Origin: Bacteroidales bacterium
GTDB lineage: Bacteria > Bacteroidota > Bacteroidia > Bacteroidales > P3
DNA: 40,602 nucleotides
Direction of reading: 5' to 3'
Assembly: GCA_017962615.1 (NCBI GenBank)
Contig: JAGCUZ010000058.1
Span: forward strand, 1-40,602
Shown here: piece by piece, positions 3,108 through 40,602 of the stretch
How positions within the stretch are numbered: position 1 is the first letter of the stretch
Layout: each line of letters begins with the position of its first letter
Translations under genes and position numbers: made by a program
Notes under the pieces: model-generated
Database searches by the model: none
Told to the model about the DNA's origin: nothing
The model's input: only the letters and a program-made list of their open reading frames with translations

Positions 3108-3212
3108 TTTATTTAGTTATAAGTTATTAGTTATTAGTTATAAGTTATAAGTAGCTGACGCGCACTGCATATCCACTTATCAACTTATCAACATAAAACA
3201 TATCAACAGGTT
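3108..3212. repeat. Intergenic repeat tract: 7-bp array, GCTGACGC core, 8-bp array
   Basis: After the nrdJ stop come 7-bp units of the type AGTTATA/AGTTATT, then GCTGACGC at 3154-3161, then 8-bp units ATATCCAC, TTATCAAC, TTATCAAC, ATATCAAC running almost to the next start codon. The same modules recur between many genes in this window. Confidence 0.8.
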
Positions 3213-8692: not shown

Positions 8693-8694
8693 TG

Positions 8695-10557: not shown

Positions 10558-10576
10558 CATAAATATTTCGATATAG

Positions 10577-18058: not shown

Positions 18059-18486
18059 TTTTAAGTTTTAAGTTATTAGTTGTTCGCTTTCCATGTTTTT
18101 CATTCAGCGGTGCTATTCGCTATCCATGTTTTTAATTCAGTGGTGCTCATGACCTCAGTTCACAGCCTTCGGCATTAAGTGGCTGACGCGGTTTAGAGAT
18201 TATAGATACGATAGAGACGATAGAATCGATAGAGGCTGACGCACATTTTGTTCTCCGCTGCGCTATCGAAAGTCACTAAAGGTAACTTCTATAAATTCGT
18301 TATATTCGTTTTATGCTTGCATAAATATTCTAAAAATAAATTCGTTAGATTCGTGCAATTCGTGTTCAACCGAAGGTCATGAGCACCTATGAAATGAAAA
18401 ACATGACAGCGAATAATAGTAATAAATAGAACTCGCTTAAACTTCTTCACGTATCAACTTATCCACATTCAACATATCAACAAATC
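18059..18486. repeat. Composite repeat region upstream of dnaE
   Basis: No gene here. In order: 7-bp AAGTTTT/AGTTATT units; two tandem copies of a roughly 35-bp module (18083-18114 and 18116-18154); a 29-nt stretch (18161-18189) identical to the reverse complement of 30123-30151 and containing GGCTGACGC; a 9-bp-period array of GATAGA units (about 18200-18233); a second GGCTGACGC (18234-18242); the CTCCGCTGCGCTATCG core (18250-18271) with a small hairpin; 9-bp ATTCGTNNN units (about 18293-18366); an inverted copy of the 35-bp module (18375-18413); and 8-bp ATATCAAC units ending at the dnaE start. The module copies in opposite orientation could fold into a large cruciform. Confidence 0.85.
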
Positions 18487-21400
18487 ATGTATTTTGCTCA
18501 TTTGCACGTGCACTCGCACTACTCGATATTGGACGGAATGTCGAAGATTCCCGACCTGGTGAAGAAATGCAAGAAGGACGGCATGTATGCCATGGCGCTT
18601 ACCGACCACGGCAACATGTTCGGCATCAAGGAGCTGTTCGACTTTGCCAAGAAGGAGAACGGCAAGGTGAAGGACGCCGTCAAGGAGCAGAAGGCCGTCA
18701 TAGCCAACGAAGAGGCTACCGAGGAGGAGCGCGCTGCCGCCAAGGCGCGCATCGAGGAGCTGGAAGCCACCTTTTTCAAGCCCATACTGGGCATAGAGAC
18801 CTACTGCGCCCACGAGCACCGCACAGTGAAGACCCACCGCGACGGCTGGCACCTCATACTCCTTGCCAAGAACAAGCAGGGCTACCACAACCTGTGCAAG
18901 CTCAGCAGCATAGCCTACACCGAGGGCTACTACTACAACCCCCGCATCGACCACGAGCTGCTGCAGCGCTACCACGAGGGGCTTATCTGCTGTTCGGCCT
19001 GCCTGGGCGGCGAGGTGCCGCAGAAGATACTGATGGGCGACATGGCGGGCGCCGAGGCCTCGGTGCTATGGTTCAAGCAGCTCTTCGGCGACGACTACTA
19101 CCTCGAGCTGCAGCGCCACAAGACCGACAAGCCCAACGCCGCCACCGACACCTTCGAGAAGCAGCAGCGTGTGAACGCCGTCCTCGTCGAGCTGGCCGCC
19201 AAGCACGGCATAAAGCTCATAGCCACCAACGACGTCCACTTCGTCGAGGAAGAGCACGGCGAGGCCCACGACCGCCTGATATGCCTCAGCACCGGCAAGG
19301 ACTTCGGCGACCCCTCGCGCCTGCACTACACCAAGCAGGAGTGGCTGAAAAGCCCCGAGCAGATGGCCGCAATCTTTGCCGACATGCCCGAGGCGCTGGA
19401 AAACACGCGCGAGATTGTGGACAAGGTGGAAGAGTACGACATCAACAGCAACCCCATCATGCCCGCCTTCCCCATCCCCGAGAGCTTCGGCACCGAGGAG
19501 GGCTACCGCCAACGCATTGCCGAGGAGGAGCTCCTCGACGAGTTTGCCCGCAACGACAAGGGCGAGCCCATCGCCGACCCCAAGGCCCGCCAGAAGCTGC
19601 TCGAACGCCTCGGCGGCTATGAGAAGCTCTACCGCATAAAGCTCGAGGCCGACTACCTGGGCAAGCTGGTGTGGGACGGCGCCCACCGCCGCTACGGCGA
19701 CGAGCTGAGCGACGAGATAAAGGAGCGCATAGGCTTCGAGCTGCACACCATAAAGACCATGGGTTTCCCCGGCTATTTCCTCATCGTACAGGACTACATA
19801 CGCGGCGCGCGCGAGGAGCTGGGCGTCAGCGTCGGGCCCGGGCGTGGCTCGGCCGCAGGCAGCGTCGTGGCCTACTGCCTGTGGATAACCGACGTGGACC
19901 CCCTGAAATACGACCTGCTGTTCGAGCGTTTCCTGAACCCCGACCGCATATCGCTGCCCGATATCGACGTCGACTTCGACGATGCGGGGCGCGGGCGTGT
20001 GCTCGACTGGATAACGCATAAATACGGCAAGGAGCGCGTGGCGCACATCATTACTTACGGCACCATGGCCACCAAGTCGAGTGTGGCCGACGTGGGAAGG
20101 GTGCAGAAGATACCCCTTGCCACGGTCAACTACGTGAAGAGCCTTATCCCCGACCGCGGCTTCCCCGACAACGTGAAGGACGAGAAGGGCAACAGCCCCA
20201 AGGTGAACCTGCACAACTGCTACAAGTATGTGCCGCAGCTGAAGAGCATCATGGAGAGCGCGTCGGCCGCCGACCTGGAGCTGAAGGAGGTGCTCACCTA
20301 CGCCGAGGAGCTCGAGGACACCAACCGCCAGATAGGCATCCACGCCTGCGGCGTCATCATAGGCGCCGACGACCTCACCAACTTCGCCCCCCTCTGCACC
20401 ATAAAGGACAAGGAGACCGACCAGGATGTGCTGGTTACGCAGTACGACGGCCACGTGGTGGAGGAGGTCGGCCTCATCAAGATGGACTTCCTCGGCCTCA
20501 AGAACCTCACCATCATCAAGGATGCCCTGCGCAACATAAAGCACAGCCACCGAGTGGATGTCGACATCGACCATATACCCATCGACGACGAGCTGACCTA
20601 TAAGCTGTTCGGCGACGGTGCCACGGTGGGCACCTTCCAGTTTGAGTCGGCAGGAATGCAGAAATACCTGCGCGAGCTGAAGCCCCACGTGTTCGAAGAC
20701 CTCATAGCCATGAACGCCCTCTACCGTCCGGGGCCAATGGAATATATACCCGACTTCATCGACCGCAAGATGGGCCGCAAACCCATCGAGTACGACATCC
20801 CCTGCATGGAGCAGTACCTCAAGGACACCTACGGCATCACCGTGTACCAGGAGCAGGTGATGCTCCTGTCGCGCCAGCTGGCCAACTTCACCCGCGGCCA
20901 GAGCGACACCCTGCGCAAAGCCATGGGCAAGAAGCAGATTGCCAAGATGAACGAGCTGGAGGTGCTGTTTTACGAGGGCGGCGAAAAGAACGGCCATCCG
21001 AAGGAGAAGCTGCAGAAGATATGGGAGGACTGGAAGAAGTTTGCCAGCTACGCCTTCAACAAGAGCCACGCCACCTGCTACTCGTGGGTGGCCTACCAGA
21101 CGGGCTACCTCAAGGCACACTACCCCGCCGAGTACATGGCGGCGGTGCTCACCAGCGGCCTGAGCGACATAACGCGCACCACGCAGCTGCTCGAAGAATG
21201 CAAGCGCATGAAGCTCAGCGTGCTGCGCCCCAGCGTAAACCTCTCCGAGAAAGACTTCTCGGTTGACAGCGAAGGCAACATCCGCTTCGGCCTCTGCGCC
21301 ATAAAAGGCATGGGCGAGGCCGCCGCCGAGGCGCTGATAAAAGAACGCGACACCAACGGCCCCTTCAAGTCGGCCTACGACTTCGTGGAGCGCATCGACC

Positions 21401-23318: not shown

Positions 23319-23450
23319 TTATTTCTAAGTTCTAAGTCTTAAGTTTTAAGTGGCTGACGCAATTATTAGTTCTAAAGTTTTAAGTGGCTGACGCAGCATC
23401 TATCGCATCTATCCTATCTATCACATCTATCACTTATAGCAAAAAACAAT
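23319..23450. repeat. Intergenic repeat tract with two GGCTGACGC cores and a 9-bp array
   Basis: 7-bp AAGTTCT/AAGTTTT units lead to GGCTGACGC at 23352-23360. A second 7-bp block leads to a second core at 23386-23394. Then four 9-bp units ATCTATCNN run to the M28 start. Same family as the other gaps. Confidence 0.85.
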
Positions 23451-25726: not shown

Positions 25727-25766
25727 AAGAAATGTCGTCTGTCTCTTTTCCAATCTTTTAAAATCT
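25718..25766. terminator. Bidirectional terminator between aroE and ftsZ
   Basis: AGATTTTAAAAGA (25718-25730) and TCTTTTAAAATCT (25754-25766) are perfect 13-bp reverse complements around a 23-nt loop containing CTTTTCC. It overlaps the aroE stop codon and lies 33 bp beyond the ftsZ stop on the other strand, so it probably serves both converging units. Confidence 0.7.
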
Positions 25767-25798
25767 GATGGAGATTAATGTTTTCAACATGTTGGTAA

Positions 25799-27622
25799 TC
25801 AATCCGGCAGGCCGTGCAGGCAGTCGTTGGGCTGCATTATCACACCGGCCGAGGCCACGGTCGAGGCAAGCTCGGAGTGGCGCGACAGGTTGCCGTTGTA
25901 TGTCTCGGCAATTGGTAAGCCGCCGGCATTCTCCATGGGGTTCATGCGCTCAACGATGGCAGGACCGTCGGGGTTGGAGTGCAGCAGTTCGTTCATGCGG
26001 CGGATGCGCTCGGCCAGCTGTTTTGAGCGGCTGTCGTCCGACTCGGGCTGCGGGAAGCGCGGTGCGGGAGCGGTTTTGACGGCTGCCGCGGGCTCGCCCG
26101 TGAAGTTTGCCACGGGGGCAGGCTCAGGGGTGAAAGCGGGTCTCTGCTCCGCCACCGGGGTTTCCACTGTCTCTGTTCTCAGCTCAGCTGCCGGAGTCTC
26201 CACTGTCTCTGTTCTCTGCACGCGGGTCAGTACTATGCCGTCGTCAGGGATGTACTCTGCTATGGGTTGCGCCATCACGCTCTCGGCTATCGGCAGGGCG
26301 GCCTCTATTGCCGGTTCAAGCACCTGGGCGGGCTGCTCTGCAACCGACTCCATTGCAGGAGCCTCAACCGGATCGAGTGTATAGACGTGTCGGGTTACGG
26401 TTGCCTCAGGAGTATCGGTTTTCTGCTCAGCCATCCCGGCTGTCACGATAGCGGAAGCGGTAGCTGCTGTATCGTTAGTTTGCGCTACAGGTTTGGCAGC
26501 TTCTGTTTTCTGCTCCGCTACCGGAGTCTCCACAGGTGCCACGGGCTGGGATTGCTCTTTGTTGGCATCGGCGGGCTCGGGTTTGTCGGCGTCGAGGTCG
26601 ATTTTAACCGGGGCTTCTTTCTTCTCGGGTTGGAAACCAGTGGCTATTATGGTAACCTTGAGTTCCTCGGTGAGGCACTCGTCGGCACCTGCGCCCCAGA
26701 TCACGTTAGCCTCGGGGTCGTTGATGCATTCGGTCATGTACGAGGTGGCTGTATCCAATTCGTCCATTGTTATCATCTTGTCGGGCGGATAGGAGAAGTA
26801 GAGCAGCACGTTTTGAGCACCCGCGATGTTGGTGTCGTCAAGCAGCTGCGATTTCGAGGCGGCCTCGATGGCCTCCTTGGCGCGTTCCTCGCCCTTGCCG
26901 GTGCCGGTGCCCATATAGGCCGAACCGCTCTTGGCCAAGACGGTGTTCACGTCGCGGAAGTCAGTGTTGATAAACGAGGTGACGGTGATAATCTCGGCAA
27001 TGCTCTTAGCGGCGGTTTGCAGCACGTCGTTGGCCTTGTCGAGAGCCTCGGGCATAGGCAGGTTGCCGAACATGCGCATTTTGTCGTTCGATATGACGAG
27101 CGTTGCGTCGACAATCTCGCGCAGTTCCTCGAGGCCTTTCTGAGCCTGACGTTCTCTGGGTTTGCCCTCGAACCTGAAAGGCATCGTGACGATGGCCACG
27201 ACGAGAATCTGGCCTATCTCCTCGTCGTCGAGTTTAATCTCCTTGGCTATGCGGGCAATTACCGGAGCCGCACCGGTGCCTGTGCCGCCGCCGAGGCCGG
27301 CGGTGATGAAGAGCATCTTGGTGTTGCGGGCGAGGATCTCTTTGATTTCGTCCTTTTTCTCTTCGGCGGCGCGTTTGGCCACGTCGGGGCGGTTGCCGGC
27401 GCCGAGACCGCTGCCCAGCAGTATTTTGGTAGGCACCGGGTTATCGTCCAAAGCCTGACGGTCGGTGTTGCATACGATGAAGTCTACATCCTTTATGCCT
27501 TGCCGCATCATGTGTTTTACGGCGTTGCCGCCGCCGCCGCCCACGCCAATAACTTTGATGAACGACGAACTGTTTTTAGGCGCGTCGAAGGTCAAAAGAG
27601 TGGAATTTATAATATCTTCCAT
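25799..27622 (-). CDS. ftsZ: Cell division protein FtsZ with a very long linker
   Basis: The tubulin-like GTPase that forms the division ring. The GTP-binding signature GGGTGTG is at 111-117, the nucleotide loop GVGGGGGNAVKHM at 27-39, and the T7 loop reads NTDFRDV. The globular part ends near residue 340. A linker of roughly 200 residues follows, rich in Ala, Glu, Pro, Thr and Val and made of repeats such as ETPVAEQ and TETVETP. The tail has NPDGPAIVERMNPM in the position of the conserved C-terminal peptide and ends NDCLHGLPD, an ending I recall as similar to other Bacteroidales FtsZ. At 607 aa it is well above the usual 380-480. It is the last gene of the dcw cluster. Confidence 0.95.
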   Translation of the reverse strand: MEDIINSTLLTFDAPKNSSSFIKVIGVGGGGGNAVKHMMRQGIKDVDFIVCNTDRQALDDNPVPTKILLGSGLGAGNRPDVAKRAAEEKKDEIKEILARNTKMLFITAGLGGGTGTGAAPVIARIAKEIKLDDEEIGQILVVAIVTMPFRFEGKPRERQAQKGLEELREIVDATLVISNDKMRMFGNLPMPEALDKANDVLQTAAKSIAEIITVTSFINTDFRDVNTVLAKSGSAYMGTGTGKGEERAKEAIEAASKSQLLDDTNIAGAQNVLLYFSYPPDKMITMDELDTATSYMTECINDPEANVIWGAGADECLTEELKVTIIATGFQPEKKEAPVKIDLDADKPEPADANKEQSQPVAPVETPVAEQKTEAAKPVAQTNDTAATASAIVTAGMAEQKTDTPEATVTRHVYTLDPVEAPAMESVAEQPAQVLEPAIEAALPIAESVMAQPIAEYIPDDGIVLTRVQRTETVETPAAELRTETVETPVAEQRPAFTPEPAPVANFTGEPAAAVKTAPAPRFPQPESDDSRSKQLAERIRRMNELLHSNPDGPAIVERMNPMENAGGLPIAETYNGNLSRHSELASTVASAGVIMQPNDCLHGLPD

Positions 27623-27817
27623 AAAAGCGGATTGTATTTATCTGTTTTATTATTAATCATTTAAGCACAGTACACACCTATGCTGTTCAGAATGTAAAAT
27701 TACGACGAACTTATTGATTATTGAACTGTTGCCCGACTTTGTTTTCAACAAAATGGTGTGCATAACTATAATGTTTTTTATTTACTCGCCAAATCACTGT
27801 GTATCAGGCATGTTTCA
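27623..27817 (-). promoter_or_regulatory. ftsA-ftsZ gap, possible ftsZ leader/promoter
   Basis: This 195-bp AT-rich gap is free of the repeat modules found in the other large dcw gaps. Minus-strand TAATTTTA near 27700 is one mismatch from TAnnTTTG and would give a leader of about 75 nt. ftsZ commonly has extra promoters, so this is a reasonable site, but it is not proven. Confidence 0.4.
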
Positions 27818-29242: not shown

Positions 29243-29250
29243 GATGCTGC

Positions 29251-30054
29251 TTATTTATTGATTAATTTTTTTGTGCAAACTATTTGATTGACATATTTTA
29301 TGCTGATGCGGCTGTAGCGTTCCCAGCCTGTCAGAGGGAGGCCCTGATTGACCATAGCGTCGAGGTTGCCGAACTTGCGCTCGAGGTTGTCGGCATCGCC
29401 CACCTCGACAACAAAACTACCCACCTTGGGCACCGCAACCAGATTGTTGTCGTGCTCGATGTATATCTGATCGAAAAGGCTGCCATAGCGCTCGTTGTCG
29501 TGCAGGAAACAGCTCAGCCGCCACGCCATGGCCAGGCCGCACTTGCGCGTCTTTTCATTATCGGCCAGTCGCTTGAGGTTCCATTGCAGTGCATTGCCGG
29601 CGGGGATTGTCTTTAAGTCGCCGTTCACCACCGGCACATCGGCAATCAGGTCGCCGCGCGAAGGCATGACGCAGCCAGTGTTGTCGAAATAAAGGTCGCC
29701 GTTCTCCATAAACAGATGCATCACCGCCACGCGCTGACGCGCCGTGACCTGCAGCGTGCCGTCGACCGATATCGTCACCCTGCTGTCGGCCACGTAGGGA
29801 TTGCTATCGACCAGCTGCCGCACGGCCTTCAGGTCGACCTCTTTTATCTTCTGTCTTGTCAGCTGCGGCATCTTGGTGTACACGAGCGTGTCGAGTTCGC
29901 AGGCCTGAAGGAGGGTGTCGGCGTCGCGGTAGTCAATCTTCGTTGCAACCCCTTTCAGCGTCGAGTTGCTGCGCACCACATTGGCCGCAACCACCAACGC
30001 CACCATCAGTATGGCAAACAAAATGTACAGCGTTATCTTACCTCGACGTTTCAT
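29251..30054 (-). CDS. ftsQ: Cell division protein FtsQ
   Basis: A 267-aa single-pass inner-membrane protein: a short basic N-terminus (MKRRGKI), a transmembrane segment (about 8-27), then a POTRA-like region (about 50-115) with NPYVADSRVTISVDGTLQV, and the beta domain with QRVAVMHLFMENGDLYFDN. It bridges early and late divisome proteins. Identification rests on this layout and the position between murC and ftsA; sequence conservation in the family is low. Confidence 0.88.
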   Translation of the reverse strand: MKRRGKITLYILFAILMVALVVAANVVRSNSTLKGVATKIDYRDADTLLQACELDTLVYTKMPQLTRQKIKEVDLKAVRQLVDSNPYVADSRVTISVDGTLQVTARQRVAVMHLFMENGDLYFDNTGCVMPSRGDLIADVPVVNGDLKTIPAGNALQWNLKRLADNEKTRKCGLAMAWRLSCFLHDNERYGSLFDQIYIEHDNNLVAVPKVGSFVVEVGDADNLERKFGNLDAMVNQGLPLTGWERYSRISIKYVNQIVCTKKLINK

Positions 30055-30201
30055 TTAGGTTGTTGAATGTTGATCTGTGGATATGTTGATACGTTGATAT
30101 GTTTAATGTGGATATGTTATGTGCGTCAGCCACTTAATGCCGAAGGCTGTGAGCACCGCTGAATAAAAGACATGGAAAGCGAACAACTTAGAACTAATAA
30201 C
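30055..30201. repeat. Intergenic repeat tract between murC and ftsQ
   Basis: 8-bp GTTGATAT/GTGGATAT units (30060-30122), then GCGTCAGCC (30123-30131), then a block whose first 29 nt are the exact reverse complement of 18161-18189. A copy of the 35-bp module (30152-30183) matches 18083-18114 in about 30 of 32 positions. 7-bp ACTTAGA/ACTTAAA units finish the tract at the murC stop. Confidence 0.88.
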
Positions 30202-31677: not shown

Positions 31678-31780
31678 GAATGATTTAAAAATTATTTTTA
31701 GTTTTTAGTTATTAGTCTTAAGTGTTAAGTGGCTGGCGCGGTGGTTGGGCTGCGTAGCACTTAGAACTTATAACTAATAA
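31678..31780. repeat. Intergenic repeat tract between murG and murC
   Basis: 7-bp TTTTAGTTATTAGTC-type units, a variant core GGCTGGCGC (31731-31739), then GGCTGCGTAGCAC and 7-bp ACTTAGA/ACTTATA units running to the murG stop. The layout is almost identical to 34087-34192. Confidence 0.8.
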
Positions 31781-32878
31781 CTATCTTGTAAGTTTCTCTA
31801 TCTCGTCAACAATCTTGTCGGCGGCGCCGTACACCGCCATGCGCTTGCACGCTTCGCCTATGCTGCGACGGCGCTCCCCGTCGGCCAGCAGTTCTGCAAG
31901 GGTGGGTATGCCTTTGCTGCCGCACTCGTCGTCGCGCACCATCAGCGCCGCTCCCTGGCTGGCCAGCGCCTGCGCGTTCTTGGTCTGATGGTCTTCGGCC
32001 ACGTTGGGCGAGGGTATCAGTATCACAGGCTTGCCAACGATACACAGCTCCGATATCGCTATGGCACCCGCGCGAGAGATTACCACATCAGCCACACTGT
32101 AGGCAAGGTCCATGCGACTAACGAACTGATGCACCTTCACTTTGTCCTCAAGGTTGGCGGCTTTGACGGCTGCAAGGTCCTCCTCGTAGTTCCAGCGGCC
32201 TGTCTGCCACACTATCTGCACGTCGTTGTCCTTAAAATACGACAAATTGCTCTTTATCATATTGTTTATGCTACCTGCGCCGAGGCTGCCGCCCACGCTG
32301 AGCACTATGGGTTTGTCGGGGTTCAGCCCGAAGTGACGGCATCCTTCTTCTTTGGTGGCCTGCAGCTGCTCTATGTCTTTGCGCACCGGGTTGCCCGTGA
32401 ACACTATCTTCTGTGCAGGGAAGAAGCGCTCGAGGCCCTGGTAGGCCACGCAGATACGGTCGGCGTGGCGGGAGAGCATCTTGTTGGTAAGGCCGGGGTA
32501 GGAGTTCTGCTCCTGCAGAAGCGTCTTATAGCCCATCTGCGACGCGCTCTTGAGCGTCGGGGCACTGGCGTAGCCGCCCACTCCGACCACTATATCGGGT
32601 GCGAAGTTTTTTATTATTCTTCTGACCATGAGCTGACTGCGCAGCATGCGGAACAGTATTGCGACGTTCTTTGGGTTGTACAGCGGACGCTTGAGTCCGG
32701 CTATTGGCAGAGCCTTGATTTCATAGCCTGCGGCGGGTACGCGCTCCATCTCCATGCGCCCTTTGGCACCGATGAACAGTATCTCGGCATCGCTCCAACG
32801 TGCTTTGATGGCATTGGCAATGGCTATTGCCGGAAAGATATGGCCGCCGCTGCCGCCACCGCTAATTATTGCTCTCAT
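31781..32878 (-). CDS. murG: UDP-GlcNAc:lipid I GlcNAc transferase
   Basis: Converts lipid I to lipid II on the inner face of the membrane. The 365-aa GT28 protein has the N-terminal loop GGGSGGH (7-13), VGVGGYASAP, LLQEQNSYPGLTNKMLS, the FTGNPVRKDI segment, SVGGSLGAGSIN and the donor-site segment VISRAGAIAISEL. All expected motifs are present. Its start overlaps the ftsW stop by 4 bp, so the two are translationally coupled. Confidence 0.96.
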   Translation of the reverse strand: MRAIISGGGSGGHIFPAIAIANAIKARWSDAEILFIGAKGRMEMERVPAAGYEIKALPIAGLKRPLYNPKNVAILFRMLRSQLMVRRIIKNFAPDIVVGVGGYASAPTLKSASQMGYKTLLQEQNSYPGLTNKMLSRHADRICVAYQGLERFFPAQKIVFTGNPVRKDIEQLQATKEEGCRHFGLNPDKPIVLSVGGSLGAGSINNMIKSNLSYFKDNDVQIVWQTGRWNYEEDLAAVKAANLEDKVKVHQFVSRMDLAYSVADVVISRAGAIAISELCIVGKPVILIPSPNVAEDHQTKNAQALASQGAALMVRDDECGSKGIPTLAELLADGERRRSIGEACKRMAVYGAADKIVDEIEKLTR

Positions 32879-34086
32879 GATTGTACAGTGTTTTGATTTT
32901 CAGATAATGTTTGCTCGCCAAAGTCGGCTTCGCCGGGGGTCTCTATATAGGACTGCTGCCCGGCAGCAGCAGTTTGTTGCTGCGCCTTGCGCGTGTTGTC
33001 GCGTGCCACCGACTGTATGGCTCCTATGATTATGCCCATGCAGAGGTAGGCGGTGCCGCCGTAGCTTATAAGCGGCAGGGTTTGTCCGGTTACGGGCAGG
33101 GCCCCGACGGCGACGCACATGTTCACCAGAGCCTGATAGTATATCAATATGCCGAGTCCCAGCACCATCAGCGAGCCGAAGCGGCCGCGGCAGTTGCGTG
33201 CGGTCCTTATGCAACGCATGAACAATATGCTGTATAACACGAAGATGAGTATCCCGAACCAGGCACCCATCTCTTCGATTATGATGGCGAAGATGAAGTC
33301 GTTGTGGGCCTCGGTCATCAGTCGGGCATGCACGGTGCTGCCCACGCCGTTGCCGGTGAGGCCGCCGCTGGCTATAGCCATACGCGCTATGTTCTCTTGC
33401 GACAGTTCGTTGGGATTGGGGTGCATCCATGTGTCGATACGGTGCACCCATGTGGTCGAGCGTCCGACCTCCACCCCCTCGTGGGTGGCGAAATAGCCCA
33501 GACCGCCGCCTACAAGGAGCAGGCAGGCCAGCATGACCCTGAGCCACCATTTGCGGTTGACGCCGCCAAAATACATCAGTGTGAAGCAGGTGATGAACAC
33601 CAGCGCGGCCATTGAGAAGTTGTCGAACAGCACCACGCCGGCCACGGCACATACAGTGAGCGACACGCGCTTGAAGACGCTGGGGTCGTCTACTTCGTCT
33701 TTCTGCAACGCCAGCTGGCGTGCGGTGACCATGACCACCAATACCTTGGCGAGCTCGGAGGGCTGGAAACGGCCTATAAGAGGCAGCTTTATCCAGCGCG
33801 TGTGCGACATGGCTACATACACCAGCAGCACAAGGACGGCGAGCAGCAGCCACAGGCTCCATTTCGACAGCTTGCGGTAGTTGACAAACGACACTCCTAT
33901 GGCTATGACATAGGCTGCAACGACGAACACCAGGTGCTTCACAAAGAAGCGCATCGGTGTGGACGAGTGGGTGTTGGCCGTTAGACCTGACGCGCTGAAC
34001 ACCGCCACGAGGGATATGATGCTCAGCAGGATGCACACTATCCAGAGTCCTTTGTCGCCTTTAAGTATGTTTAGAGCCTTGGGCAC
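32875..34086 (-). CDS. ftsW: Peptidoglycan glycosyltransferase FtsW
   Basis: A 403-aa SEDS polymerase with about ten membrane segments. Family motifs are RFQPSELAKVLVVM, the extracellular-loop EAHNDFIFAIIIEE (with the catalytic Asp in the ND pair) and LPVTGQTLPLISYGGTAYL. The C-terminal cytosolic tail of about 40 residues is Gln- and Glu-rich. It works with FtsI in septal wall synthesis. Length is typical. Confidence 0.95.
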   Translation of the reverse strand: MPKALNILKGDKGLWIVCILLSIISLVAVFSASGLTANTHSSTPMRFFVKHLVFVVAAYVIAIGVSFVNYRKLSKWSLWLLLAVLVLLVYVAMSHTRWIKLPLIGRFQPSELAKVLVVMVTARQLALQKDEVDDPSVFKRVSLTVCAVAGVVLFDNFSMAALVFITCFTLMYFGGVNRKWWLRVMLACLLLVGGGLGYFATHEGVEVGRSTTWVHRIDTWMHPNPNELSQENIARMAIASGGLTGNGVGSTVHARLMTEAHNDFIFAIIIEEMGAWFGILIFVLYSILFMRCIRTARNCRGRFGSLMVLGLGILIYYQALVNMCVAVGALPVTGQTLPLISYGGTAYLCMGIIIGAIQSVARDNTRKAQQQTAAAGQQSYIETPGEADFGEQTLSENQNTVQS

Positions 34087-34192
34087 GATATTTAGTTTTT
34101 AGTTATTAGTTTTAAGTGTTAAGTGGCTGGCGCGATGGTGTGGCTGTGTAGCACTTATAACTTAAAACTTAAAACTTAGAACTTACAACTTT
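34087..34192. repeat. Intergenic repeat tract downstream of the MurD remnant
   Basis: 7-bp units TTTAGTTTTTAGTTATTAG-like, variant core GGCTGGCGC (34125-34133), GGCTGTGTAGCAC, then ACTTATA/ACTTAAA/ACTTAGA units. Nearly the same arrangement as 31678-31780. Confidence 0.8.
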
Positions 34193-34732
34193 CTACAGGT
34201 CGTTTACCTCTCTAGCAAATCGTTCGCCGAGTTCTTCGATGCTCTTGCCGTTCTCCACGGCGGGCGAGTAGATGACGGTGGTGTTCTCAAGGTCGTTGTA
34301 GAGTGCCTTGTGGGCGGCTTCGCCTACGGTGGCCACATCGACGATGTTCTTCACCACGCCGTCGAACGCTTTGTGCAGCTGCTCGTTGTGCTCGCCGACG
34401 CATATCAGCATCTTGACTTTGCGTGCCGCCACGTTGCGCAGGCGCGTGTAGTCAGTGTGTGCCGAGGTGGCCGAGGCAATCCACACGGTGTTGCGGCCCA
34501 TGTTCTCGAGCGAGTACCATGTGGCGTTGACGGTAGTTGACGAGGCGTCGTTGATGAACTCTATGCCGCGTATGCGTGCCACGAACTCCATGCGGTAACG
34601 CATCTCGTCCACATGGGCGAAGCACTCTTTCAGGTGGGCGTTGCGCATCATGCTGAGTTTCGATGAGTCGATGCCGGCAAGGCCCGTGTGTGCCTGTTCA
34701 CGACCTTGTTTTGCCAATAATTCTATGCTCAT
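34193..34732 (-). CDS. MurD C-terminal domain remnant, stand-alone
   Basis: The 179-aa product aligns with the last ~180 residues of MurD (UDP-MurNAc-L-Ala:D-Glu ligase), whose normal length is about 445. YRMEFVARIRGIEFIND and the following TTVNATWYSLENM match well, as do the VKMLICVGEHNEQLHKAF and SPA...GERF regions. The ATP-binding centre and the UDP-binding N-terminus are absent. The SKATN motif reads ASSTT (63-67), losing the lysine that contacts D-Glu, and the CASxDxF segment after SPA is replaced by VENGKSI. The frame is open and its protein-like pattern intact, so it could be a decaying fragment or a reused scaffold protein. It sits at the usual murD position (mraY-murD-ftsW), and repeat tract DNA lies where the N-terminus would be. 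Confidence 0.75.
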   Translation of the reverse strand: MSIELLAKQGREQAHTGLAGIDSSKLSMMRNAHLKECFAHVDEMRYRMEFVARIRGIEFINDASSTTVNATWYSLENMGRNTVWIASATSAHTDYTRLRNVAARKVKMLICVGEHNEQLHKAFDGVVKNIVDVATVGEAAHKALYNDLENTTVIYSPAVENGKSIEELGERFAREVNDL

Positions 34733-34821
34733 ATTTGTGTGATGTATTTGTTTAGAAATTAATAATTAACAATTAAATATTGCGTCAGCCTCTATCGCCT
34801 CTATCATATCTATCGTATCTA
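34733..34821. repeat. Intergenic repeat tract at the murD truncation point
   Basis: 7-bp TTAATAA/TTAACAA units (34758-34779), GCGTCAGCC (34782-34790), then four 9-bp TCTATCGNN-type units running to the mraY stop. It joins mraY directly to the truncated MurD frame. Confidence 0.82.
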
Positions 34822-36000
34822 TTATCGCAGTTTGAGGGTGACGATGGTAACTATTGCGAGCAGTATGCCGATGATGGTGAAGCGTTGCACTATCTTCTCG
34901 TCTTTGAGGCCCGAGCCGTCGGGGCGGTGCTTCTCCTGGTAGTGGTGGTGCAGGGGGGTGTAGCGGAAGGGGCGAGCCTCGAGCGGCACGGGTTGCGACG
35001 CCGGCAGCTTGTGTTTGCGGCGGTAGTGCTTGCAGCTGTAGCGCTGTATGATGACGGAGAGGTCCTCGATCAGGTAGATTCCGCACAGTATGGGCAGCAG
35101 CAGTTCTTTGTGGATGAGCAGGGCAAAGACGGCTATGATGCCGCCGATGGCCAGCGAGCCGGTGTCGCCCATGAAAATCTGCGCCGGATGGGTGTTGAAC
35201 CACAGGAAACCTAGCAGGGCTCCCACAAACGAGGTGATAAACATGGTCAGCTCGCCTATGTTAGGCAGGTAGGTGATGGCAAGGTAGTTGGCCATGATGA
35301 CGTTGCCGGCCAGCCACGCCAGTATTGCCAGGGCGCCACCCACCACGGCCGCCACGCCGGTGGCCAGACCGTCGATGCCGTCGGTGAGGTTGGCGGCGTT
35401 GGAGACTGCGGTGACGATGAATATTGCCACGGCCACGTATACCACCCACACCCACTGTTCGGCCCACGGCCCCATCCAGGTGATGAGCCAGGCGTAGTCG
35501 AACTCGTTGTTTTTCACAAAAGGAATTGTGGTCTTGGTAGATGCGATGTCGGGGTGAAAGGAGAGCAGCAGGCCGACGACGAGACCCAGACCCACCTGGC
35601 CCACCACCTTGAAGCGGCCGGGGAGGCCTTTTTTGTCGCGCTTGAACACCTTGATGTAGTCGTCGGCAAAGCCTATCAGACCCAGCCAGAGGGTGGTGCC
35701 CAACATGGTAAGCACGTAAACGTTGTCGAGCTTGGCAAAGAGGAGTGTGGGAATGACTATGGCAGCAATAATCAGCAGGCCGCCCATGGTAGGCGTGCCA
35801 CGCTTCTCGCTCTCGTCGTCGCGCACGGTCTCGCCGATGCCTTTGCGCTGCATCAGCCTGATGTAGGGCTTGCCGCACAGCAGCATTATCAGCAGCGAGC
35901 TGACGAAGCAGCATGCCGAACGGAACGATATATACTGGAACACTCCCGCACCCGGGAAGTCGAAGCTCTTGTCTAACCAATCGAATAAATAATATAGCAT
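34822..36000 (-). CDS. mraY: Phospho-MurNAc-pentapeptide transferase
   Basis: Makes lipid I from UDP-MurNAc-pentapeptide and undecaprenyl phosphate. A 392-aa polytopic protein with KRGTPTMGGLLI, the catalytic aspartates in GFADDYIKVFKRDKKGLPG, NLTDGIDGLATG, FMGDTGSLAIGG and the TPLHHHYQ motif near the C-terminus. A Bacteroidota-type extra periplasmic segment (about 148-175) is present. It is flanked on both sides by repeat tracts. Confidence 0.96.
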   Translation of the reverse strand: MLYYLFDWLDKSFDFPGAGVFQYISFRSACCFVSSLLIMLLCGKPYIRLMQRKGIGETVRDDESEKRGTPTMGGLLIIAAIVIPTLLFAKLDNVYVLTMLGTTLWLGLIGFADDYIKVFKRDKKGLPGRFKVVGQVGLGLVVGLLLSFHPDIASTKTTIPFVKNNEFDYAWLITWMGPWAEQWVWVVYVAVAIFIVTAVSNAANLTDGIDGLATGVAAVVGGALAILAWLAGNVIMANYLAITYLPNIGELTMFITSFVGALLGFLWFNTHPAQIFMGDTGSLAIGGIIAVFALLIHKELLLPILCGIYLIEDLSVIIQRYSCKHYRRKHKLPASQPVPLEARPFRYTPLHHHYQEKHRPDGSGLKDEKIVQRFTIIGILLAIVTIVTLKLR

Positions 36001-36207
36001 ATTTAGTTTTAAGTTATTAGTTCTAAGTTATTAGTAGCTGACGCAATTAATTATTAATTTTTAATTCTTAATTTCTTTTAGTTCTCCGACTGCGCAGCAG
36101 TCCTTTTTCTTTTTGTTCTTTTAGTTCTGATTGAGCCCTTGACTGCGCAGCAGTCGTATTCTTGAGATTCGTGTTCAATTAAAACCGCGTCAGCCAATTT
36201 TTAATTC
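36001..36207. repeat. Intergenic repeat tract between murE and mraY
   Basis: Contains 7-bp TTTAAGT/TATTAGT units, GCTGACGC (36037-36044), 7-bp TTAATTN units, GTTCTCCG followed by the hairpin GACTGCGCAGCAGTC (36088-36102), a second identical hairpin (36141-36155), ATTCGTGTTCAATT, GCGTCAGCC (36187-36195), and a last TTAATTN array at the murE stop. The two cores are in opposite orientation. Confidence 0.85.
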
Positions 36208-37662
36208 TTAATTTTTAATTGTTAATTCTTCTCTGAGTTCCTCGCGGTCGTCGAAGTGGTGGCGCACGCCGTTAATCTCTTGGTAGGTCTCGTGGCCTTT
36301 TCCGGCTACGAGTATTATATCGCCTTTGGCGGCCATCTTGCAGGCGGTTCGTATGGCTTGACGGCGGTCGGTAATGCGCAGCATGTTGGCTTTCATCTCC
36401 TCGGTGAGACCCTTCTCCATGTCGTCGAGGATTGCCTCGGGGTCTTCGGTGCGGGGGTTGTCGGAGGTGAGTATCAGCATGTCGGCCCCGCGTGCGCCTA
36501 TCTGTGCCATCTCGGGCCGCTTCGTCTTGTCACGGTCGCCGCCACAGCCAACGACTAATATCAGCTTGCCTTGGCGCTGCACGCCGTTGATGGTGCCGAG
36601 GACGTTCTGCAGGGCGTCGGGAGTGTGGGCATAGTCGACCACGGCGGTGATGCCCTGGCCGGTTATATATTCAAACCGCCCGTCTACGGGTTTCAGCCCG
36701 CTCAGCAGGCGCAGCGCCTCGTCTTTGTCGATGCCGCACAGCACTGCTGCACCGTATATGGCTGTGAGGTTGTAGGCGTTGAAGCGTCCCACCAGGCGGC
36801 ACCACACCTCACTGCCGTTCAGCTCGAGCAGTGTGCCGTCGAAGCTGCTCTCCACCATGCGGCACCTGAAGTCGGCCACGGTTTCCAACGCGTATGTGTG
36901 CACGGCGGCTTTGGTGTTCTGCACCATCACCATGCCGTTGCGGTCGTCGCGGTTGGTGAGGGCCCATGCGTCACGCGGCAGAGCGTCGAAGAAGCCCTTC
37001 TTGGCGGCTATGTAGGCTGCCATGGTTTTGTGGTAGTCCAGATGGTCGTGGGTTATGTTGCTGAATATGCCTCCGGCAAACGTCAGGCCTGCTATGCGCT
37101 GCTGCACCACGGCGTGCGAGCTCACCTCCATGAAGCACCACTCGCATCCCGCCTCCACCATCTCGGCCAGCAGGGCGTTGAGCTCCATGGCGTCGGGCGT
37201 GGTGTGACATGTCGGCATCTCCTTGCCGTCGATTTTGTTAACTATGGTCGATATCAGTCCCGCCTTGCAGCCGTGGGCGCGCATAAGGTCGTACAGCAGC
37301 GTGGCCGTCGTGGTCTTGCCGTTGGTGCCGGTAACGCCTAGGAGTTTCAGGCTCCTGGAGGGATGGTTGTACCAGTTGTCGGCCATGATGCCCAAGGCTT
37401 TGCTGCTGTCGTCCACCTGTATGTACACCACCCCGTCGCGACGCTCTTCGGGCAGCTCCTCGCACACAACGGCGGCGGCACCCTGCTCCACAGCCTTGGC
37501 TATGTACTGGTGACCGTCCACATGCACGCCTCTCTGCGCCACGAAGAGGCACCCCTTGCCGACCTTACGCGAGTCGAACTCTATGGAGGTAATCTCAATC
37601 GCCGGTCTCGGCGCGTCAGTGGTCAGCGTTATATTGGTCAGTATATCGTCTAACAGTTTCAT
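36208..37662 (-). CDS. murE: UDP-MurNAc-tripeptide synthetase (meso-DAP adding)
   Basis: Adds the third amino acid to the peptidoglycan stem peptide. The 484-aa protein has the N-terminal SIEFDSRKVGKGCLFVA substrate pocket, the P-loop TGTNGKTT (111-118), NITHDHLDYH, the DYAHTPDAL segment and the DNPR motif (401-404), which specifies meso-diaminopimelate rather than lysine. GKGHETYQ is near the end. It overlaps the ftsI stop by 4 bp. The DNPR motif predicts a DAP-type wall, as expected for Bacteroidota. Confidence 0.96.
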   Translation of the reverse strand: MKLLDDILTNITLTTDAPRPAIEITSIEFDSRKVGKGCLFVAQRGVHVDGHQYIAKAVEQGAAAVVCEELPEERRDGVVYIQVDDSSKALGIMADNWYNHPSRSLKLLGVTGTNGKTTTATLLYDLMRAHGCKAGLISTIVNKIDGKEMPTCHTTPDAMELNALLAEMVEAGCEWCFMEVSSHAVVQQRIAGLTFAGGIFSNITHDHLDYHKTMAAYIAAKKGFFDALPRDAWALTNRDDRNGMVMVQNTKAAVHTYALETVADFRCRMVESSFDGTLLELNGSEVWCRLVGRFNAYNLTAIYGAAVLCGIDKDEALRLLSGLKPVDGRFEYITGQGITAVVDYAHTPDALQNVLGTINGVQRQGKLILVVGCGGDRDKTKRPEMAQIGARGADMLILTSDNPRTEDPEAILDDMEKGLTEEMKANMLRITDRRQAIRTACKMAAKGDIILVAGKGHETYQEINGVRHHFDDREELREELTIKN

Positions 37663-38831
37663 TTCCTGTTCTCGAGTTTTAGTTTCACTTCTGTGCCGCG
37701 CTGTGCCGCCGTTCCTGCGGCAGGGGTCTGAGCCGTCACGCGGCCGTAGCCTGCGGGTATACCCTTGTACCCTGCGCTGTGCAACAGCACCAAGGCTTCA
37801 CGCGCCGTCATCCCCGTGCAGTCGGGTACTGCGGTAGGTTTAATGTGGATAGGTTGATATGTGGATACGTCAGTCTGAACACCGGTCACCCATCTTGCGT
37901 TGCTGTCGGTAGTCAGGTATCTCAGGCCCATCAGGTCGTAGGCTCTCATCAGCTTTTCCTGCCGTGCCGTCGCCGTCTTGGGCATCTGCGGACGGCCATG
38001 GTCGGAGGTGTCGTACAGTGCTGCGGGTATTGTCATCACCTTGCCGTCGGGATGGGTAGCCATCACACAGTCGGCCACCTCTTTCACCACAGGCGCAAAC
38101 TGCCGTCCGTGCATGCCCCACACGCCCATCACCGTCACCACGCATGCATATTTCGGACTCTTGGCAGGAAACAGTCCTGCAAAGGTGGCGTTGAAGTAGC
38201 GCGAGTCAATGTCGATGTACGATGTGCCGGTCTTGCCCGCAATGCCGTAGGGCGTGCCTTTTATGTTGTTGCCCGTTCCCTGCTCCACCACGTTGGCAAG
38301 CATGTCCATCATTATCTTGGCGGTGCGGGGACTGCAGATGCTGTCGCGCAGCACTTCGGGCTCTATCGTCTTGCGACCTTTGCGGGTTATTATCTCTTGG
38401 CAGAACTGGGGCTTCATCATGCGGCCGCCATTGCCCAGGGCGGCGTAGAAGGTTGCTATATGCAGCGGCGTGCAGCTCACGGCGTAGCCGTAGTTGATGT
38501 GCAGGAAGTCCACTTCGTACTTCACCGGAACCATTGTGGCTGCCACATTCGGCGCCTTCAGCCCTACGTTAAGTTTCTCGAAGGGGAAACGCTTCTTGAA
38601 CTCGCCCACGTAGTACTGCTGCCTGTCGCCGTAGTGCTGCCACACCTTCGAGCACAATCCCACGTTCGACGACTTGGCCATGGCGGTCATCACGCTCACG
38701 CTGTCGGCGGGGTCGTCGTCGGTTATCAAGGTGTTGTGTATCCTGCGCGTGCCTATGGGTACGCGGTCGGCGGTATCCATGGCTTTGCCCAGGTCGTCAA
38801 TCATGGTGGTGTAAGCCACGGTCTTGAACAC
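37659..38831 (-). CDS. ftsI: FtsI (PBP3) C-terminal part: transpeptidase plus PASTA
   Basis: This frame continues the FtsI reading frame straight after an in-frame TAG at 38832-38834. The first residues VFK complete the SxxK catalytic motif, whose serine is the stop codon. The other two penicillin-binding motifs are intact: SSN (54-56 of this part) and KTGT (200-203). A C-terminal PASTA domain follows (about 330-385, with PDCTGMTAREALVLLH). The linker before it contains an intergenic-repeat sequence. A GTG or downstream ATG could start translation here, but the product would lack the nucleophile. Joined with the upstream part it gives about 748 aa, normal for a Bacteroidota FtsI with PASTA. 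Confidence 0.85.
   Translation of the reverse strand: MFKTVAYTTMIDDLGKAMDTADRVPIGTRRIHNTLITDDDPADSVSVMTAMAKSSNVGLCSKVWQHYGDRQQYYVGEFKKRFPFEKLNVGLKAPNVAATMVPVKYEVDFLHINYGYAVSCTPLHIATFYAALGNGGRMMKPQFCQEIITRKGRKTIEPEVLRDSICSPRTAKIMMDMLANVVEQGTGNNIKGTPYGIAGKTGTSYIDIDSRYFNATFAGLFPAKSPKYACVVTVMGVWGMHGRQFAPVVKEVADCVMATHPDGKVMTIPAALYDTSDHGRPQMPKTATARQEKLMRAYDLMGLRYLTTDSNARWVTGVQTDVSTYQPIHIKPTAVPDCTGMTAREALVLLHSAGYKGIPAGYGRVTAQTPAAGTAAQRGTEVKLKLENRK
37838..37873 (-). repeat. Intergenic 8-bp repeat module inside ftsI
   Basis: GTTTAATGTGGATA, GGTTGATAT, GTGGATA and CGTCAG appear in series, the same modules and order as 30098-30129 between ftsQ and murC. In the ftsI frame it encodes VSTYQPIHIKP, the linker before the PASTA domain. 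Confidence 0.75.
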
Positions 38832-38834
38832 CTA
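38832..38834 (-). other. In-frame TAG at the FtsI catalytic serine codon
   Basis: The minus-strand codons read CAG CCC GGC TAG GTG TTC AAG. In FtsI/PBP2 proteins this segment is E-P-G-S-x-x-K, with Ser the acylated nucleophile. TAG differs from the serine codon TCG by one base. No other disruption is seen in either half. Confidence 0.9.
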
Positions 38835-39905
38835 GCCGGGCTGGTACAGGTCGCAGCAGGCCACGTTGCCGTCGCGCTTCTCGCGGTACAGGCGGCGCAG
38901 GGTGTCCCATTTCAGGCTCACGCAGGCCAGCACCCTGCCTGTCTCCACCTCCATCACTACGACGGCACCTTTCGACTTCGGGTCGCCGTTGCAGTATTTG
39001 TCCATATATTTGCGCAGGCTCTGTTCAGCCACGTCCTGCACCCTCGAGTCGATGGTGGTCACTATGCTCTCGCCCTCTATTACGGCCTGACGCACAGTTA
39101 TATTGCTGCTGTCCGATTTGTCTATATCCTTCACCTCACGGCGGTTGGCGCCGGTCTCCACCGGCATCCACACGCCGCGCGTCAGGCGGCGGCACAGGTA
39201 CAGGCCGTCGCGGCCGCGCAGCAGCGAGTCGTTGTAGCCGTCAAGGCCGGTGTAGCTGTCGTGGTCGCCAAGGTAATAGCCCAGGCAGTTCTCGGCCAGC
39301 GTGCCGTAGGTGTGTGCACGGTGGTAGCGTATCACGCTGTTGTTGCCCTGGTCGTCGCTCACGCTCTGCACCACGCCTTTGCGCCAACCGGGTATACTGC
39401 ATATCTCTTTCCAGCACGAATAGGGCATCTTCTTCACCAGTGGCACGCAACGGCCGGGCTTCTTCTTGCGCCGTTCGCTTGTTATCAGTTGTTTATACTG
39501 CTCGGCACTCTTCGCGGGGTTGGCTTTGTGCAATATGTTGCACACCTGCGCGAGGTGGGCTTTGTAGTATTTGTCCTGTATTATCGTGTCGATTACCGGG
39601 CGGCCTTTCTTGTCGTACACCATGTTGCCTGCACCGTCGGTTCTGGGGTTCCAGCCCAGGTCTATGTACAGGTCGCACACCGGCACCGTGGTGGCCAGCA
39701 CCTTGCCGTCGCTCGATATTATGTCGCCTCGGTGCGCCAGTACGGTTTGCAGCATGCTCTCGCGCGACTTGGCCTTGTCGCGCCAGAAGTTGCCGTCAAC
39801 AACCTGCGTCTTCACAAGGCAGCTCACGATGGCGCCTCCGCCCAATACAACAAGTATCAGGTAGAACCATTTTATGTGCGACATGCGTGTCTTGTCCTCT
39901 TTCAT
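38832..39905 (-). CDS. ftsI: FtsI (PBP3) N-terminal part
   Basis: The 357 codons before the TAG hold the membrane anchor (about 11-31, WFYLILVVLGGGAIVSCLV), the N-terminal head with ESMLQTVLAHRGDIISSDGK (the start of the PBP dimerisation domain), and the LYLDLG-type DLYIDLGWNPRT segment. The first part of the transpeptidase domain follows (SIVTTIDSRVQDVAEQSLRK, GAVVVMEVETGRVLACVS), ending DLYQPG immediately before the active-site serine position. On its own this fragment cannot be catalytic. It starts 9 bp after the ftsL stop. Confidence 0.88.
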   Translation of the reverse strand: MKEDKTRMSHIKWFYLILVVLGGGAIVSCLVKTQVVDGNFWRDKAKSRESMLQTVLAHRGDIISSDGKVLATTVPVCDLYIDLGWNPRTDGAGNMVYDKKGRPVIDTIIQDKYYKAHLAQVCNILHKANPAKSAEQYKQLITSERRKKKPGRCVPLVKKMPYSCWKEICSIPGWRKGVVQSVSDDQGNNSVIRYHRAHTYGTLAENCLGYYLGDHDSYTGLDGYNDSLLRGRDGLYLCRRLTRGVWMPVETGANRREVKDIDKSDSSNITVRQAVIEGESIVTTIDSRVQDVAEQSLRKYMDKYCNGDPKSKGAVVVMEVETGRVLACVSLKWDTLRRLYREKRDGNVACCDLYQPG

Positions 39906-39914
39906 CGCAGATTG

Positions 39915-40406
39915 TTATTTATTACTCTTTCCCAGTATATAAGGCGGAGCCACCTGCATAGGTTGGCCCAGCGTGTCCATCTCTTCCAGTATCTTCGATA
40001 TCTTAACCGATTGCTGGCTCTCTTTCTGTATGTCGGTCTGTCTCTCTTTCAGCATGTTGATGCGCTCGGTGGCGGCTTTGCGCTCTTTGCTCAGCTGCTC
40101 TACGTAGTAGCGGTGCCACACCAGCAGCAGGCACAGTATGGCGATAAAGATTATGCATGGCAGCCAGTTCATCAGCGTCTTCGAGGTTATGGGCTGGCCG
40201 TGGTTCACCAAGCCGCGTATGCGCTGCCCGAGGGTGCGACGGCCCTCGCCGTTGTCGTCGCCCATGTCGGCCCCGAACTTGGTGGCATGGGCCAACGCCT
40301 CCAGCTCCTCGCGGATCGCCCTGCGCTCAGCCTCGGTGGCGCGGGGCTTGCCGCCGCCCTGCTCCTCGGTCGGATTGCCTTTAGTCGAAACGTCCTTGGT
40401 CGCCAT
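39915..40406 (-). CDS. ftsL: FtsL-like divisome protein
   Basis: A 163-aa protein at the position of ftsL, directly upstream of ftsI. It has a hydrophilic N-terminus of about 80 residues, one transmembrane segment (about 81-98, WLPCIIFIAILCLLLVW), then a charged helical segment (about 100-145) with heptad-like leucines typical of the FtsL coiled coil that pairs with the FtsQ/DivIC partner. Sequence conservation in this family is very low, so the call rests on layout and context. Confidence 0.8.
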   Translation of the reverse strand: MATKDVSTKGNPTEEQGGGKPRATEAERRAIREELEALAHATKFGADMGDDNGEGRRTLGQRIRGLVNHGQPITSKTLMNWLPCIIFIAILCLLLVWHRYYVEQLSKERKAATERINMLKERQTDIQKESQQSVKISKILEEMDTLGQPMQVAPPYILGKSNK

Positions 40407-40602
40407 GCTTTTTAATTAATAATTAACAATTAATAATTAACAATTTATAATTAATGTTTGCGTCAGCCACTTAAAACTTAGAACTTATAACTTAAAACTA
40501 TAATCGCGTCAGCCACTTAAAACTTAAAACTAAAAACTTAAAACTTATAACTTAAAACTATAATCGCGTCAGCCACTTAAAACTTAGAACTTATAACTTA
40601 AA
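40407..40602. repeat. Repeat tract upstream of ftsL with tandem 60-bp units
   Basis: 7-bp TTAATAA/TTAACAA units (40411-40455) lead to three GCGTCAGCC cores at 40460, 40506 and 40566, each followed by 7-bp ACTTAAA/ACTTAGA/ACTTATA arrays. The last two units repeat at exactly 60 bp. The tract runs off the window edge. Confidence 0.9.

Follow-up and report, generated by a model that had tools for sequence, protein, structure and literature searches.

Tandem heptanucleotide repeats lie between genes in cyanobacteria (STRR), and in Neisseria the NIME/dRS3 repeats form mosaics between genes, in which a short conserved repeat bounds variable modules. Here we describe a family of intergenic elements from a contig of a Bacteroidales bacterium (GenBank assembly GCA_017962615.1, contig JAGCUZ010000058.1); "the window" denotes the whole stretch of 40,602 nucleotides that was analysed. 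The elements are built of a nine-base core, GGCTGACGC or GCGTCAGCC, and of arrays of 7-, 8- or 9-bp period, which we call arms. We give an even chance to the reading that these arrays belong, as arms, to a dispersed element family of Bacteroidota that derives from palindromes, whose halves are mixed in this genome and which would be spread by recombination or by an enzyme and serve as intercistronic spacers.

The likeness to the cyanobacterial STRR is the tandem 7-bp repeat placed between genes; we know of no core and no paired arms in STRR. With NIME/dRS3, compared by description only, the elements have in common a short conserved repeat, variable modules and intergenic mosaics, and to our knowledge the NIME/dRS3 modules contain no short-period arrays and show no stop-to-start polarity. 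According to passages of PMC3733652, in which dRS3 is equated with CGTC-1, the REP and the GTAG- and CGTC-tagged palindromes, including the BIME mosaics, are small, dispersed and located mostly downstream of coding regions. The same passages present them as elements of 20-40 bp with an unpaired tag at one end, and the CGTC families as having stems of 8-9 bp and no known transposase. The present elements share with REP, as portrayed in those passages, the form of small dispersed palindromic repeats located downstream of genes. They differ in stems that reach 51 bp and are 7-bp-phased and variable, in conserved letters at the inner end, and in the arms of the window's genome, which mix several classes and for the most part do not pair. 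In place of a 20-40 bp hairpin with an unpaired GTAG or CGTC end tag, CGTC was found inside the core, at the inner stem end; and in the 12 Y1 neighbourhoods examined there was no RAYT gene flanked by the repeat, as the GTAG superfamily would have it. As regards MITE features, the palindromic form is present, and no clean empty sites or duplications were found for comparison.

Direct repeats of the heptamer TAACTGA are described, in passages of PMC4679880, from Beggiatoaceae, Cyanobacteria and five Bacteroidetes, with function and spread given as unknown; the arrays are intergenic, and in one genome most of them share an orientation immediately ahead of start codons. The present arrays are likewise 7-bp intergenic direct repeats, and the TAACTGA unit, shifted and read on the other strand, is one letter away from AGTTATA. 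That system, as described there, consists of a single heptamer and lacks both a core and a partner arm. The present elements combine units of several classes with a core and with a pair of arms of opposite type, and their arms have a commonest size. Judged on the abundant units AGTTNTA, AATTNTT, TATCAACN and GATAGANNN, the arrays stand outside the TAACTGA group, TAACTGA itself being uncounted. The family resembles the REP-type palindromes and mosaics in location and the heptamer arrays in period, and departs from them in the REP tag, the stem size, the link to a transposase and the fixed unit of the heptamer. A search of open-licence full texts, limited to the best matches, returned no description of this design, which is weak evidence of absence.

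Core and arrays in the genome

The core was counted in the whole genome of the window (G000; 2,009,018 bases in 71 contigs, 67% complete), and the window together with 20 further stretches of that genome (435,602 bases with 236 intergenic gaps) was analysed for arrays. The 20 stretches were drawn from contigs that had already shown cores in searches and so form an enriched sample. Genes and start codons were called with a home-made codon-usage predictor, and the arm motifs were defined after inspection of the data. The statistics use gaps of one genome, which are not phylogenetically independent.

The initial annotation had listed 14 core positions in the window and had taken the flanking arrays for modular, as distinct from random low-complexity, DNA. 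All 14 carry the core or a one-base variant: ten are exact (18181, 18234, 23352, 23386, 30123, 34782, 36187, 40460, 40506 and 40566) and four are variants, namely GGCTGGCGC at 31731 and 34125 and AGCTGACGC at 3153 and 36036, the last two having been placed one base late each. In the 2.0-Mb genome the exact 9-mer occurs 132 times as compared with 53 for the reversed control, and GCGTCAGCCACTTA 68 times as compared with 0; the core is thus above chance frequency. Copies lie on many contigs, which rules out a restriction to the contig of the window. In the 435.6 kb of core-enriched sequence, the 9-mer was found 46 times in 72.9 kb of intergenic DNA and four times in 362.5 kb of predicted coding DNA.

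The 7-, 8- and 9-bp periods were recovered by the array scan. Intergenic arrays numbered 49 for period 7, 17 for period 8, 21 for period 9 and 15 for period 11, and periods 4, 5, 6, 10, 12 and 13 gave 0-1 arrays each (shuffles 0-1.4). Periods 14-24 scored too (up to 28), many of them being multiples or sums of 7, 8, 9 and 11. The abundant units are the four named above. Arrays of 11-bp period were set apart from the family, as 3/13 of those typed lie in tandem gaps (seven are divergent and three convergent) against 81/83 for periods 7-9 taken as one group. They were seen at window positions 186-285 and 8879-8923 and at loci L133 8442-8536 and L119 13399-13486, some as inverted pairs, and differ in sequence across most of the 20 relatives sampled.

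Placement and polarity of the arms

An array or core was present in 65/174 tandem gaps, 2/22 convergent gaps and 1/24 divergent gaps, an enrichment of tandem gaps with p 0.0008 against divergent and 0.008 against convergent ones. Every array class is found on both strands, and the strand is set by the position in the gap. The G/T-type strand (AGTTNTA, GTTGATAN, GATAGANNN, and AATTAAN for the TTAATT class; GT arms) lies toward the stop codon, and the A/C-type complement of these units (AC arms) toward the next start codon. In all 37 tandem gaps where the two types occur together, no AC arm comes before a GT arm; the order is the same in 28/28 gaps when the near-palindromic TTAATT class is left aside. 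Lone GT arms occupy the first half of the gap in 15/15 cases. The core is located at the arm's inner end: a GT motif lies directly 5' of 36/46 sense cores and an AC motif directly 3' of 8/13 antisense cores, the reverse arrangement was never seen, and the remaining cores have no motif within 6 bases. The arrays had been said to combine freely. The classes do mix, a 7-bp GT arm being joined by an 8-bp AC arm in nine gaps, a 9-bp AC arm in six, a 7-bp AC arm in four and a TTAATT arm in four, yet the rule of order and strand limits the combinations. This polarity from GT to AC, the near-restriction to co-directional gaps and the capping of hairpins by the core elsewhere in the Bacteroidota had escaped the initial annotation; its view that the DNA is modular is upheld.

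The split was also observed in relatives. In an unsupervised test with 20 relatives pooled, the first half of the gap held 11 GT and 5 AC arrays and the second half 4 GT and 24 AC arrays (p ~0.0006), the five relatives that were sampled further being those whose first stretch had shown arrays. Background DNA of the window's genome showed no such GT/AC split (88/98 and 78/98 windows).

The earlier remark that arrays run up to starts and stops was confirmed. In 34/35 gaps the start of the first 7-bp GT motif falls between -8 and +15 relative to the stop codon, and in nine gaps the stop codon TAG is itself the beginning of the array. TAG stops were found in 18/35 genes with a 7-bp GT arm and in 69/291 genes overall (p 0.0002). 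At the other end, between 2 and 136 bases (median 20, 51 gaps) separate the end of the last AC motif from the predicted start.

The Bacteroidetes promoter word is TAnnTTTG. Among gaps of 60-400 bp it was present in 2/54 tandem gaps with the element, 21/55 element-free tandem gaps and 10/13 divergent gaps, for which shuffles gave 4.1, 4.5 and 1.6, respectively; its scarcity in element as compared with element-free tandem gaps has p 9e-6. In the 25 bases before the start codon, G makes up 7.6% in gaps with an AC arm (52 gaps), 16.0% in element-free gaps (85) and 16.0% in nine gaps with the element but without an AC motif. Purine-rich words resembling the Shine-Dalgarno sequence were found in 1/52, 3/85 and 1/9 of these gaps, respectively; Bacteroidetes are reported to be without Shine-Dalgarno sequences (PMC6847099). 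A possible role in mRNA spacing, one of those suggested for the arrays at the outset, is supported by the position, the scarce promoter words and the low G content before the start codon.

Structure of the arms and distribution among congeners

Exactly four units make up 31/61 of the core-attached 7-bp arms. The units are specific to their position within the arm, and adjacent units are identical in 21/159 cases, fewer than the 28.6 +/- 3.8 expected. Because of the four-unit mode, the position-specific units and the few identical neighbours, the arms look like copies of modules, and an origin as slippage microsatellites is rejected on the same features.

In the genus, GCGTCAGCCACTTANAAC has 52 copies in the window's genome and 1-3 copies in 11 others of the 120 genomes (0-3 across the 119 congeners). 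Other congeners carry arrays of different sequence: a AGTTAAGGGA array followed by TTCACTA in G069, and a TTAGCAG array followed by TTCACATC in G065. At one locus a hairpin form is kept in four metagenome-assembled genomes (MAGs), with 77/85 gap columns invariant, including 39/39 columns before the ATG; third codon positions are 63-65% invariant.

Capped palindromes in the Spirosoma family

Scanned for across 84,980 species, AGTTNTAAGTGGCTGACGC was met in 26 stretches, of which 19 are from Bacteroidales/Bacteroidetes MAGs, six from four Spirosoma species and one from Thiomicrospira; the last looks like a chance match. A capped palindrome (GGCTGACGC, 5-30 bases, GCGTCAGCC) was found in 2/395 genomes across the phylum, the reversed control giving one place in another genome. 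In the family of those two genomes, taken as the Spirosoma family, it occurs in 20/121 genomes and 4/36 genera, with up to 65 per genome and none for the reversed control. The core is here one half of the hairpin cap, and the arrays are the arms.

Stem statistics were obtained from 54 unique capped palindromes of seven genomes of this family. Beyond the cap the stems measure 1 to 51 bp, and the commonest loop is 12 nt (22/54). Stems of at least 20 bp have a 7-bp autocorrelation of 0.635 as compared with 0.298 +/- 0.016, with 7-bp units that are highly unlike one another (GTTTACG, AATGTAC, GAGCCAA, GGATTTC). The palindromes lie in 30 tandem gaps, 22 convergent gaps and one divergent gap (background 94, 26 and 31), and 62/74 of their arm ends are at most 20 bases from a stop codon.

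The same sites were compared in related genomes. Behind a gene that we read as pheT, an inverted repeat of score at least 17 is present in 6/21 genomes; the stems of G506, G573, G542 and G589 at this site are all different, and three of them are built on GTTTNNN. Among 27 gene neighbours conserved between G506 and G573, five have a palindrome in both genomes, one in G506 only and three in G573 only; the flanking proteins are 86-98% identical where a hairpin is present. At three of the five shared sites the two stems resemble each other no better than stems taken from different sites do, save for a shared cap in one. At some sites, then, one stem has been replaced by another. No target duplication was seen at the compared sites. 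Two G506 palindromes (L203 4872-4962, which is without the GGCTGACGC cap, and L204 12535-12631) each have ~30 similar places in G573, mostly 75-93% identical, with 40 candidates scored for each and, for one of them, 257 candidates in all.

Elements in the window

Three elements lie on the plus strand. In the gap that separates a ribonucleotide-reductase gene from a HerA-like gene, the element at 3108..3212 consists of a 7-bp GT arm (3115-3152), the core variant AGCTGACGC (3153-3161) and an 8-bp AC arm (3168-3208). A composite element before dnaE (18059..18486) begins with a 7-bp GT arm at the stop codon and continues with two copies of a 33-bp module (18083-18147), a core (18181-18189), a 9-bp GT arm (18194-18233), a second core (18234-18242), an ATTCGT 9-bp module near 18283-18370 and an 8-bp AC arm (18452-18487). 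At 23319..23450 a 7-bp GT arm, a core (23352-23360), a second 7-bp GT arm, a core (23386-23394) and a 9-bp AC arm (23396-23441) follow one another.

The other elements belong to the division and cell wall (dcw) cluster, which forms the minus-strand block 25799-40406. Its order is FtsL-like, penicillin-binding protein (PBP), murE, mraY, murD-like fragment, ftsW, murG-type glycosyltransferase, murC, an unassigned gene, ftsA and ftsZ; the usual gene between murC and ftsA in this cluster is ftsQ. Elements occupy five gaps inside the cluster and one just upstream of the FtsL-like gene, all on the minus strand. Between murC and the downstream gene 29251-30054, the element at 30055..30201 has, at the stop codon of murC, a GT arm of 7-bp period, and further a module common to other loci (ATTCAGCGGTGC...CTTCGGCATTAAGT), a core (30123-30131) and an 8-bp AC arm (30061-30118). 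Two elements are of hairpin type: 31678..31780, between the murG-type gene and murC, with 7-bp arms flanking the core variant at 31731-31739 (fold z -6.7), and 34087..34192, between the murD-like fragment and ftsW, with 7-bp arms at 34091-34124 and 34153-34191 around the core variant at 34125-34133 (fold z -5.4). The gap between mraY and the murD-like fragment (34733..34821) holds a 9-bp GT arm (34788-34821), a core (34782-34790) and a TTAATT-type 7-bp arm. The double element between murE and mraY (36001..36207; fold z -5.1) comprises a TTAATT-type arm with a core (36187-36195), inner GC hairpins, a second TTAATT-type arm (36046-36074), a core variant (36036-36044) and a 7-bp AC arm (36003-36035). 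Upstream of the FtsL-like gene, a triple element cut by the contig end (40407..40602) has three 7-bp GT arms with cores at 40566, 40506 and 40460, followed by a TTAATT-type arm (40413-40455). Since the contig ends at 40602 within this triple array, such repeats probably break assembly.

The murD-like gene (34193-34732, minus strand) matches the murD model, which is 441 long, at positions 267-418 only and has an element on either side; it may be a real truncation or an assembly fault driven by the repeats. The PBP gene of the cluster (37659-39905, minus strand) appears as two neighbouring reading frames. Two further kinds of module recur within elements at several loci (window 18083-18147 and 36075-36186; L044 13530; L050 5363): the 33-bp repeat, of CATGTTTTTAATTCAGCGGTGC type, and short GC hairpins (GAAAGTCCAGTGGACTTTC, GACTGCGCAGCAGTC). 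An RNA-family scan of the window at gathering score gave only a cobalamin riboswitch (8510-8702, minus strand, 110 bits), away from the elements. The window also holds a 52-bp tandem repeat of ~2 copies with 96% matches at 10572-10677.

Discussion

For the function and the mover of the element we infer the following course. The ancestral-looking form, met in the Spirosoma family and a few relatives, is a capped palindrome at the stop codon: two complementary arms, phased at 7 bp, enclose GGCTGACGC and GCGTCAGCC, which are themselves separated by a loop of ~12 nt. In the window's genome the family would have multiplied and its halves would have been mixed, giving one or more GT arms with GGCTGACGC and, after them, an AC arm that often belongs to another class, which would be why most copies there no longer fold. 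Copies may spread and swap when repeats recombine or undergo conversion, perhaps helped by an unseen enzyme; judged from the distribution and comparison of copies, exchange between repeats at the shared arms and cap is the most likely route. Within operons the element would be an intercistronic spacer, where stop codons in the GT arm would halt stray translation past the upstream gene and the G-poor, unstructured AC arm would provide the start region of the downstream gene. Position and composition point to selection as the most likely reason for which elements would be kept in operon gaps.

Several observations weigh against this reading. Gaps of the window's genome that hold elements fold like shuffles (median z -0.06; 12/53 below -2), the element-free gaps are more folded (median z -1.61; 21/45 below -2), native arm pairs are no more stable than swapped pairs, and strict GGCTGACGC...GCGTCAGCC capped palindromes number 0 in this genome. 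For most copies there, upkeep of a hairpin was rejected on the fold test, true hairpins such as 31678-31780 and 34087-34192 of the window being a minority; as the element gaps show no fold excess, descent from hairpins is argued from the shared core, arm type and polarity. The polarity has its own exceptions. Lone AC arms have no preferred position (nine in the first half, ten in the second), and an unsupervised order test put GT before AC in 11/13 gaps of the window's genome, with two exceptions, and in 6/6 in relatives, a weaker result than that of the motif-based test. Only 29/47 palindromes of the Spirosoma family have a 5' arm rich in G/T, and background DNA of that set shows the split as well (71/51 and 34/67); since that background leans the same way, polarity is not established in this family. 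In the comparisons of sites, two of the five shared sites keep recognisably related stems, changed on both arms, and no clean empty site was found. Finally, the presence of GGCTGACGC in two orders could be due to convergence or transfer.

A MITE- or REP-like non-autonomous element, whose transposase would recognise the capped hairpin and whose position would result from stop-codon target choice together with selection, is a possibility that we take seriously and still regard as doubtful. It would account for the dispersed copies, the conserved cap with a variable loop, the placement at stop codons, the lineage-specific amplification and the ~30 places in G573 that match one G506 palindrome (40/257 candidates scored). 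The search for a mover speaks against it. Y1/IS200-type genes occur in 11/12 genomes tested, with and without the element; among 12 distinct Y1 neighbourhoods (13 stretches, of ~46 matches), 11 were without the exact core and one, L200, had a single core ~3 kb away. The Y1_Tnp (IS200/RAYT-type) genes of the window's genome (G000:C40:58448-58789 and G000:C22:45399-45734) had no exact core in the neighbourhoods fetched. This tells against a mover of IS200/RAYT type: Y1 genes are present with and without the element and did not lie beside it in the 12 places examined. Target duplications and clean empty sites were not seen, and viral contigs gave no exact match to one 19-base pattern. A BLAST search of plasmids and phages returned nothing for one element; the plasmid and phage searches say little, because the low-complexity filter was on and may have masked the query. 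Of the earlier proposal of a non-autonomous family dispersed by an unseen enzyme, the dispersed family is supported by the commonest arm length, the position-specific units and the lineage-specific copy number, and the enzyme was not found.

It is unlikely that the arrays are DNA or RNA binding sites, at which a protein would read one unit per repeat and the 7-, 8- and 9-bp classes would serve different proteins. The core letters of each unit are kept with one position varying, and the period is kept while the sequence changes, as might be expected of such sites, but the units differ within the genus and at the same sites of relatives, which a fixed reader would hardly tolerate. Terminators or mRNA 3'-end hairpins, of which the forms in the window would be decayed ones, are decidedly unlikely: the long stop-codon hairpins of the Spirosoma family, which all but avoid divergent gaps, do suit them, but in the window's genome the element gaps are found within operons, dcw among them, where a promoter word for the next gene is seldom present, these gaps mostly do not fold, and no clear U tract was seen by eye behind the printed Spirosoma-family hairpins. 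Ordinary slippage microsatellites or an assembly artefact, which tandem short-period repeats and the end of the window within an array might suggest, are hardly credible in the face of arms commonly of four position-specific units with few identical neighbours, copies on many contigs, the core in named isolates and the rules of strand and position.

A bolder extension of the palindrome-derived reading is that Bacteroidota possess a class of self-renewing phased palindromes, whose sites behind stop codons persist while both arms are rewritten at once and the period (with the GGCTGACGC cap in one family) is kept. We think this rather improbable, the more so because two of the five shared sites keep related stems. 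If sites do persist while stems are replaced and the period is kept, some process would act on whole arms, and we know of none that does. Self-renewing palindromes, if real, would call for an unknown mechanism able to write or convert arms of period 7 as whole units, and the genome of the window would be one that has gone over to mixed, unpaired arms filling operon gaps.

The rules described here, and hence the tests they allow, may be applied to scattered puzzles such as arrays of heptamers, palindromes arranged as mosaics and unusual intercistronic spacers. The capped form occurs in cultured Spirosoma, S. luteum DSM 19990 and S. fluviale DSM 29961 among them, which makes the question accessible to bench work. 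The elements may thereby bear on how genes are kept apart within operons in bacteria that ignore Shine-Dalgarno sequences.

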